The translations under genes were made by a program, and so were the position numbers. From Antedon bifida (lineage: Eukaryota > Echinodermata > Crinoidea > Comatulida > Antedonidae): 64,000 nt of DNA. Below, piece after piece: positions 198-17,345 of this stretch. The stretch lies in NCBI GenBank assembly GCA_963402885.1, contig OY727100.1, positions 9,021,395 through 9,085,394 of the forward strand, given 5' to 3'. Position 1 is the first letter of the stretch. The number at the start of each line of letters is the position of its first letter. A model generated the notes under the pieces. That model ran no database searches and was not told the DNA's origin. It worked only from the letters and a program-made list of their open reading frames with translations.

Positions 198-359
198 CAT
201 CGTACCATCCCCCTGTTAAATCTTCCCCGTTGTCACCAGCGTCATCCAGGGCACTATCACCCCTGTAAGAAATTCTGTTGTTCTCAGGTAACGCACCGGA
301 CCTTTGTGCCTCATAGAACAGAATGGATTTATAAAGAACATCATCATAAGCGTACGGTA
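198..359 (-). CDS. GH9 gene exon 10: N-terminal start of the GH9 catalytic domain
   Basis: The exon has 162 nt, with acceptor ttttttaacag before 359 and donor GATG|GTAAGC, phase 1. Its translation carries [15 protein letters not shown], then [17 protein letters not shown], then DLTGGWYD. These are the strongly conserved opening motifs of GH9 endoglucanases ([11 protein letters not shown], W/Y-RGDS, DLTGGxYDAGD). The exon breaks inside the YD-A-GD motif, whose Asp residues belong to the catalytic centre; the remainder lies beyond position 1. Both CBM2 type and catalytic family therefore identify the gene. An 85-codon plus-strand frame over the same bases is its shadow. Confidence 0.9.

Positions 360-17345: not shown

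Follow-up and report, generated by a model that had tools for sequence, protein, structure and literature searches.

The CBM2-bearing GH9 cellulases of abalone and its relatives carry an N-terminal CBM2, followed by a linker and a C-terminal GH9 domain. The protein described here retains this domain order and appears to differ from these comparators in possessing seven CBM2 modules and a 1,842-residue repeat array. GH9 cellulases are known in abalone and in the sea urchin Strongylocentrotus nudus (available text of PMC4123733), and the accessible parts of PMC6011409 and PMC4123733 report animal GH9 as vertically inherited, with a sea urchin GH9 among the known members. According to the available portion of PMC11083476, many animal GH9 enzymes carry no CBM (three references are given as exceptions), and the CBM-less forms are poor on crystalline cellulose; an earlier note on the present DNA had described invertebrate GH9 enzymes as usually having zero or one CBM2 and a short linker, of which the absence of CBMs agrees with this account of many animal members.

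In bacteria, CelA of Caldicellulosiruptor bescii (CbCel9A/Cel48A, native form about 230 kDa) resembles the present protein in being a GH9 enzyme that is large and secreted and carries CBMs in tandem, of which two CBM3b are identical, whereas it differs in being bacterial, in carrying CBM3 rather than CBM2, and in having GH48 as its second catalytic module (PMC3865294, in the part available). GH6 and GH7 cellulases with CBM1 or CBM2 also place Ser/Thr-rich linkers between their binding and catalytic modules, as found here. In the accessible text of PMC3490864, these linkers average 30–42 residues, with a maximum of 75 among the bacterial CBM2 linkers retained, while divergent linker sets, some of them longer, were analyzed apart. 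In contrast to those linkers, the array described here is 1,842 residues long, Pro-poor, and acidic, making the tether about 25 times as long as that 75-residue linker.

The open-access papers listed, covered mostly by titles and the beginnings of abstracts, yielded no animal GH9 with many CBM2, as did the available parts of PMC6011409 and PMC4981690, and the titles and abstract beginnings yielded no binder–tether–binder–enzyme layout. The parts of this protein are familiar, and their layout is unusual. Our preferred reading, which we hold to be probable, is that of a single complete gene encoding a secreted, 3,509-residue GH9 endo-beta-1,4-glucanase that would be multivalently anchored and whose linker would have grown as a coding minisatellite.

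Gene structure

The window, i.e. the whole stretch of DNA analyzed, spans 64,000 nucleotides (G000:C13:9021395-9085394) of a 315.6-Mb assembly comprising 27 contigs. Joining exons from the window and its left flank revealed a minus-strand GH9 gene of 17 exons (Table 1), with a 10,530-nt coding sequence of 3,509 codons plus a TAA stop and no internal stop. All 16 introns possess a GT donor and an AG acceptor, the phases are consistent across every junction, and an AATAAA motif, a possible poly(A) signal, is located 226 nt 3′ of the stop. The earlier note had placed ten phase-consistent minus-strand exons in the window, had expected GH9 to continue left of position 1, and had estimated a total of more than 3,500 residues. 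All ten exons were recovered where proposed (with GT donors in all and AG acceptors in the nine internal ones), and seven further exons complete the GH9 domain to the TAA stop.

For the encoded protein, we calculated a mass of 385 kDa and a pI of 4.05, the latter value resembling the program's floor. From the N- to the C-terminus, the protein consists of a signal peptide, three CBM2, the Thr/acidic array, four CBM2, a linker, and GH9. Outside the array, Thr-rich linkers of 115, 147, and 97 residues were measured, along with a further linker of 19 residues. The earlier note was right about the kind of the giant linker and its length of about 1,840 residues but not about its place, as it divides CBM no. 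3 from no. 4, and the CBMs are joined to GH9 by the 97-residue linker. A signal peptide of 26 residues was identified in exon 1, its cut site placed by eye. In a 19-residue hydropathy scan, the strongest peaks start at residues 4–12 (maximum 1.65 at residue 5), and residue 3128 marks the next distinct peak (1.23), one of two weaker peaks within GH9. The protein is thus predicted to be secreted by means of an N-terminal signal peptide, with no later membrane span as judged by hydropathy.

Table 1. Positions of the exons of the GH9 gene and of other features of the window (position 1 is the first letter of the window)
Feature	Position	Strand	Content
Exon 1	17136-17345	-	Signal peptide and CBM2 no. 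1 (first half)
Exon 2	11454-12125	-	Second half of CBM2 no. 1, 115-aa Thr-rich linker with recognizable repeat seed, first half of CBM2 no. 2
Exon 3	10874-11248	-	Second half of CBM2 no. 2 and first half of no. 3
Exon 4	10458-10749	-	CBM2 no. 3 (second half) and beginning of the long linker; phase 1 at end
Exon 5	3524-9189	-	Internal, 5,666 nt; Thr/acidic repeat array, followed by CBM2 no. 4 (first half)
Exon 6	2921-3295	-	Second half of CBM2 no. 4 and first half of no. 5
Exon 7	1987-2754	-	CBM2 no. 5 (second half), 147-aa linker bearing a short form of the array, CBM2 no. 6 (first half)
Exon 8	1384-1758	-	Second half of CBM2 no. 6 and first half of no. 7
Exon 9	743-1217	-	CBM2 no. 7 (second half) and the 97 residues linking it to GH9
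Exon 10	198-359	-	First exon of the GH9 domain
Exons 11-17	-70 to -6403 (C13 9,014,991-9,021,324)	-	Rest of GH9, left of the window
tRNA-Asp-like (anticodon atc), intron 1	15398-15469	-	
tRNA-Asp-like (anticodon atc), intron 1	15749-15820	+	
tRNA-Asp-like (anticodon atc), intron 1	16113-16184	+	
Minisatellite, intron 1	13320-13927		
Minisatellite, intron 1	14062-14310		
Open frame	19680-20198	+	172 aa
Open frame	60265-60765	+	Ras-family GTPase match

Several repeats accompany the gene. The three tRNA-Asp-like sequences of intron 1 sit in longer, repeated, and partly inverted stretches, of which a partial copy was seen by eye left of the gene; these stretches are probably a tRNA-derived SINE family. 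The two minisatellites of intron 1 consist of ACAACTACCCCC and its reverse complement and lie in opposite orientation, resembling the two ends of an inverted element. Downstream of the gene, about 8,440–9,600 bases to the left of position 1 of the window, we found an array of about 34 copies of a 30-bp unit, used as a non-coding control.

The GH9 catalytic domain

The 440-residue C-terminal domain matched PF00759 at E 6.5e-153 over profile positions 1–441 of 444 when the exons were joined, which bears out the GH9 identity proposed in the earlier note and assigns the predicted domain to the GH9 family at full length. A genome search with the Pfam GH9 profile returned six matches at exon level, which all lie on the C13 minus strand (9,015,594-9,021,742) and extend left out of the window. 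Among the best candidates scored, a GH9 exon gave a single genome match, the gene itself, in a comparison that could miss distant paralogs. Across plasmid records, a GH9 relative was present in 7 of 72,556, all below 60% identity.

The best structural matches were 8ihw (E 5e-170) and 3wc3 (E 8e-170), followed by 8ihy, 8ihx, 1ks8, and 4zg8, all of which we take to be animal enzymes, with earthworm, Perinereis, and termite presumably being the source organisms of 8ihw, 3wc3, 4zg8, and 1ks8. With these last four, the whole catalytic domain of about 430 residues aligns, and the motifs DAGD (in the 8ihw and 3wc3 alignments) and NEV...DYNAGFQ are shared. They differ from the present protein in chain length (426–462 residues for the constructs as deposited, compared with 3,509) and in displaying an HHR motif where HHG is found here; in the present protein, moreover, seven CBM2 modules precede the domain.

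The catalytic residues, corresponding to the GH9 motifs as described in the available text of PMC11083476, are present as Asp3123 and Asp3126 of DAGD and Glu3483 of NE-V (alignment columns D54, D57, and E414). For comparison, the best 80 of 399 confirmed prokaryotic GH9 loci were used. Both DAGD aspartates are kept in 79 of these 80 loci, the remaining one being unaligned, and of the 51 loci that align at the position of the acid Glu, 49 retain it (29 unaligned). The Arg of the HHR motif, which lies near the GH9 active site, is replaced by Gly in this domain. At this position, the bacterial loci display Arg in 54 cases, Glu in nine, Ala in two, and Asp, Ser, and Gly in one each, with 11 unaligned or gapped and one residue not printed, while all five PDB alignments shown, four of them of near-identical chains, retain the Arg. 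Since 14 of the 80 loci carry Glu, Ala, Asp, Ser, or Gly here, HHR is not absolutely defining and GH9 membership stands; nevertheless, the change to HHG may alter catalysis, and we regard catalytic activity as likely, not certain. PROSITE-style GH9 patterns, of which the second found no match and the first matched only after loosening to allow Gly for Arg, were given no weight.

Seven CBM2 modules and their duplication

The seven CBM2 modules described in the earlier note were recognized by PF00553 on the joined exons, where six of the seven exceeded the curated cut-off of 24 bits (no. 2, 46.2; no. 3, 29.5; no. 4, 39.8; no. 5, 31.1; no. 6, 42.9; no. 7, 31.1). We assign all seven predicted modules to CBM2, with no. 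1 falling below the PF00553 cut-off at 20.7 bits. A PF00553 search of the whole genome returned no matches on unspliced sequence because each CBM2 is cut by a phase-0 intron, whereas the joined modules do match. In addition, a six-row profile of these modules, from which no. 7 was omitted because its protein equals no. 5, matched the solved CBM2 structures 2rtt (E 2.4e-5) and 1exg (E 6.2e-5). The surface aromatics of CBM2 are W17, W54, and W72 in Cex CBM2a numbering. At the three binding positions, as read by eye from the alignment, the A-type modules display W/Y/Y (with F third in no. 4) and no. 1 displays Y/W/W, while the B-type modules display W/Y/H or N and appear to lack the third aromatic of the CBM2 binding face.

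CBMs nos. 2–7 form three two-CBM modules (2/3, 4/5, and 6/7) whose exon pieces are 84–99% identical. Between modules 4/5 and 6/7, the exons are about 97–99% identical, and the introns are 93.0% (A domain) and 98.2% (B domain) identical. Among all copies, the A-domain introns are 91–95% identical, while the B-domain intron of no. 5 is 98% identical to that of no. 7 and 69% identical to that of no. 3. Apart from the CBM no. 3 intron (69%), the introns within the modules are 91–98% identical, so that the copies appear to be recent, and the predicted two-CBM module was tandemly duplicated with its introns included. Whole-module dN/dS for the three pairs was 0.35, 0.29, and 0.24 (A domain alone, 0.24–0.41; B domain alone, 0–0.32), values that derive from few changes, e.g. 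five non-synonymous and six synonymous between modules 4/5 and 6/7; the whole-module ratios would point to purifying selection since duplication. All nine listed genome matches of a CBM exon lie within the GH9 gene.

The repeat array and evidence for its translation

The array occupies residues 516–2357 (1,842 residues, or 1,877 when measured from where CBM no. 3 ends) and was cut into 271 segments, 226 of seven residues and 39 of five, of the type TTEDLVD / TTQLY. It contains 29.4% Thr, 24.7% Asp+Glu, 0.5% Lys+Arg, and 11 Pro, and Cys, Met, and N-glycosylation sequons are absent throughout its 1,842 residues. O-glycosylation of the array is possible in view of its 29% Thr, but the array is Pro-poor (11) and 25% Asp+Glu.

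An open frame within a repeat is in itself weak evidence of translation. Unit spacing supports translation: of 237 spacings between array units measured from one DNA anchor, 0 were off-frame, and four other anchors gave 0/172, 0/111, 0/57, and 0/32. In five neighboring non-coding arrays that served as controls, with one anchor each, 27 of 88 spacings departed from the commonest value modulo three (4/32, 2/15, 16/28, 5/11, and 0/2), and second anchors on two of them, counted outside this total, gave 3/21 and 2/11. The difference has a Fisher p of 1.7e-17, although the control departures stem mostly from two heterogeneous arrays and the array spacings are not independent because the units spread by copying. 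Moreover, the array frame runs without an intron into CBM no. 4, and its open reading frame is devoid of Met until residue 1,864 and must therefore join an upstream exon; lacking Met, the linker cannot start a separate protein. Taken together, the frame-keeping, the lack of Met, and the dN/dS of the CBM copies (0.24–0.35) support translation of the predicted array.

Relative to the unit consensus, 262 of the 271 segments (after dropping the first three seven-residue segments and six of irregular length) contain 22 synonymous, 40 missense, and one "nonsense" distinct single-base variants, against 17.8, 43.4, and 1.7 expected, the "nonsense" variant being a multi-base change scored base by base in a frame that has no stop. 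The synonymous excess is slight and not significant (22/62, binomial p 0.17), and since the third positions of the array coincide in one antisense frame, this count cannot separate the strands. One antisense frame of the array is nearly open, with a single stop. An antisense open reading frame of 1,902 residues (3495-9203) was set aside, as the sense frame enters CBM2 no. 4 directly and is thereby connected to domains joined by splicing. When a piece of the array was compared with Pfam, 13 families matched at E up to 1 (best 5.9e-4), none of them reaching its cut-off, and these matches were discarded as artefacts of composition.

All 42 listed genome matches of the array are confined to the GH9 gene, and the linkers of exons 2 and 7 carry short or degenerate forms of its repeat in one reading frame; the array would thus most simply have grown from such a linker. 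The predicted protein offers the case of an enzyme gene that has caught a coding minisatellite, its related linkers occurring in both short (115 and 147 residues) and long (1,842 residues) versions.

Functional interpretation and alternatives

The exon structure, the domain identities, the module duplication, and the short and long repeat versions in one frame can all be read directly from the predicted gene. On this basis, the four CBMs adjoining GH9 would hold the enzyme on cellulose, and the distal trio might grip a second site or particle, or keep the molecule within mucus or a food bolus, with the enzyme acting locally. The contour of the tether would be at most about 660 nm when fully stretched (0.36 nm per residue). 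Its length is probably loosely constrained and may be set by unequal exchange in the coding minisatellite, with selection keeping the frame. The tethered or gel-like function that the earlier note proposed for this protein is a fair suggestion. A bolder version proposes a bridging cellulase in which groups of three and four CBMs flank a tether reaching several hundred nm, of a length set by the minisatellite and maybe varying between individuals, and which, as the sole GH9 gene matched, would link or hold food particles in mucus during digestion; we consider this version doubtful. With seven CBM2 modules and a long tether, an animal GH9 of this kind would be a natural case for testing the importance of linker length and of CBM number.

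Neutral slack is an alternative to which we assign a little under an even chance. Here, the protein would be an ordinary CBM2–GH9 endoglucanase and the array a coding minisatellite, its length being without function and tolerated because it lies in a linker between independent domains. The presence of other, far shorter Thr-rich linkers in the same protein, the restriction of all listed array matches to this gene, a unit order resembling repeated unequal exchange, and the non-significant synonymous excess all suit such a scenario. The strict frame, on the other hand, requires translation, though not a function that depends on length, and this alternative overlaps with our preferred reading and is compatible with it except for the tether function.

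Alternative splicing could instead yield a compact working form, leaving the giant chain minor or tissue-specific. Indeed, the block of exons 5–9 begins and ends in phase 1, so that its skipping joins exons 1–4 to exons 10–17 in a frame that is open to the stop and encodes a 956-residue enzyme with three CBM2 and GH9; the array may thus be absent from the main product. CBM exons 6, 7, and 8 are each phase 0-0, and exon 5 is very large for an internal exon. We nevertheless judge this scenario somewhat unlikely, as the array frame is held over 237 spacings and the low dN/dS, which includes copies beyond the array, suggests that exons 6–9 are translated in some product.

A weakened or repurposed GH9, i.e. 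chiefly a cellulose-binding mucus protein and not a digestive enzyme, appears improbable. It would account for a single catalytic domain carrying seven CBMs and for two departures from the nine closest full-length bacterial loci, namely HHR to HHG (Arg in seven of the nine) and DAGD-H to DAGD-Y (His in all nine). Yet Tyr follows DAGD in 69 of the 80 loci, the Arg position varies as described above, both catalytic Asp and the Glu are retained, and the domain is full length and the only GH9 matched in the genome. Finally, expansion of the array and/or of modules 4/5 and 6/7 during assembly is highly improbable, since, despite the near-identity of these modules in exons and the error-prone nature of tandem arrays, the copies differ in both exons and introns (introns 93.0% identical in the A domain and 98.2% in the B domain) and the array units are variant-rich yet in frame.

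Other features of the window and the mitochondrial contig

Elsewhere in the window, the open frame at its far end matched the Ras-family GTPase profile PF00071 (E 8.5e-14) and is probably an exon of another gene, whereas the 172-residue open frame to the right of exon 1 matched no Pfam family at an E-value of 1 or less and may be a mobile-element fragment.

The assembly also includes a mitochondrial contig of 15,844 bp (C27), on which COX1 was identified by Pfam with six TGA codons read through; the other gene names are our reading of the translations. The features of this contig make an echinoderm source well supported and a crinoid likely, a starfish being less probable. In its ND1, AAA reads well as Asn at sites that we take to be conserved. 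The frame that we interpret as ND4L is flanked by ND4 and ND5; in other echinoderms, ND4L lies between COX1 and COX2. ND1, ND2, and ND6 are encoded on the strand opposite the other protein genes, as is likewise described for the crinoid Thaumatocrinus naresi in the available part of PMC10013537. The COX1 strand contains 46.7% T and 26.4% A, and the accessible text of PMC10478607 gives 44.9% T and 24.0% A for Poliometra prolixa.
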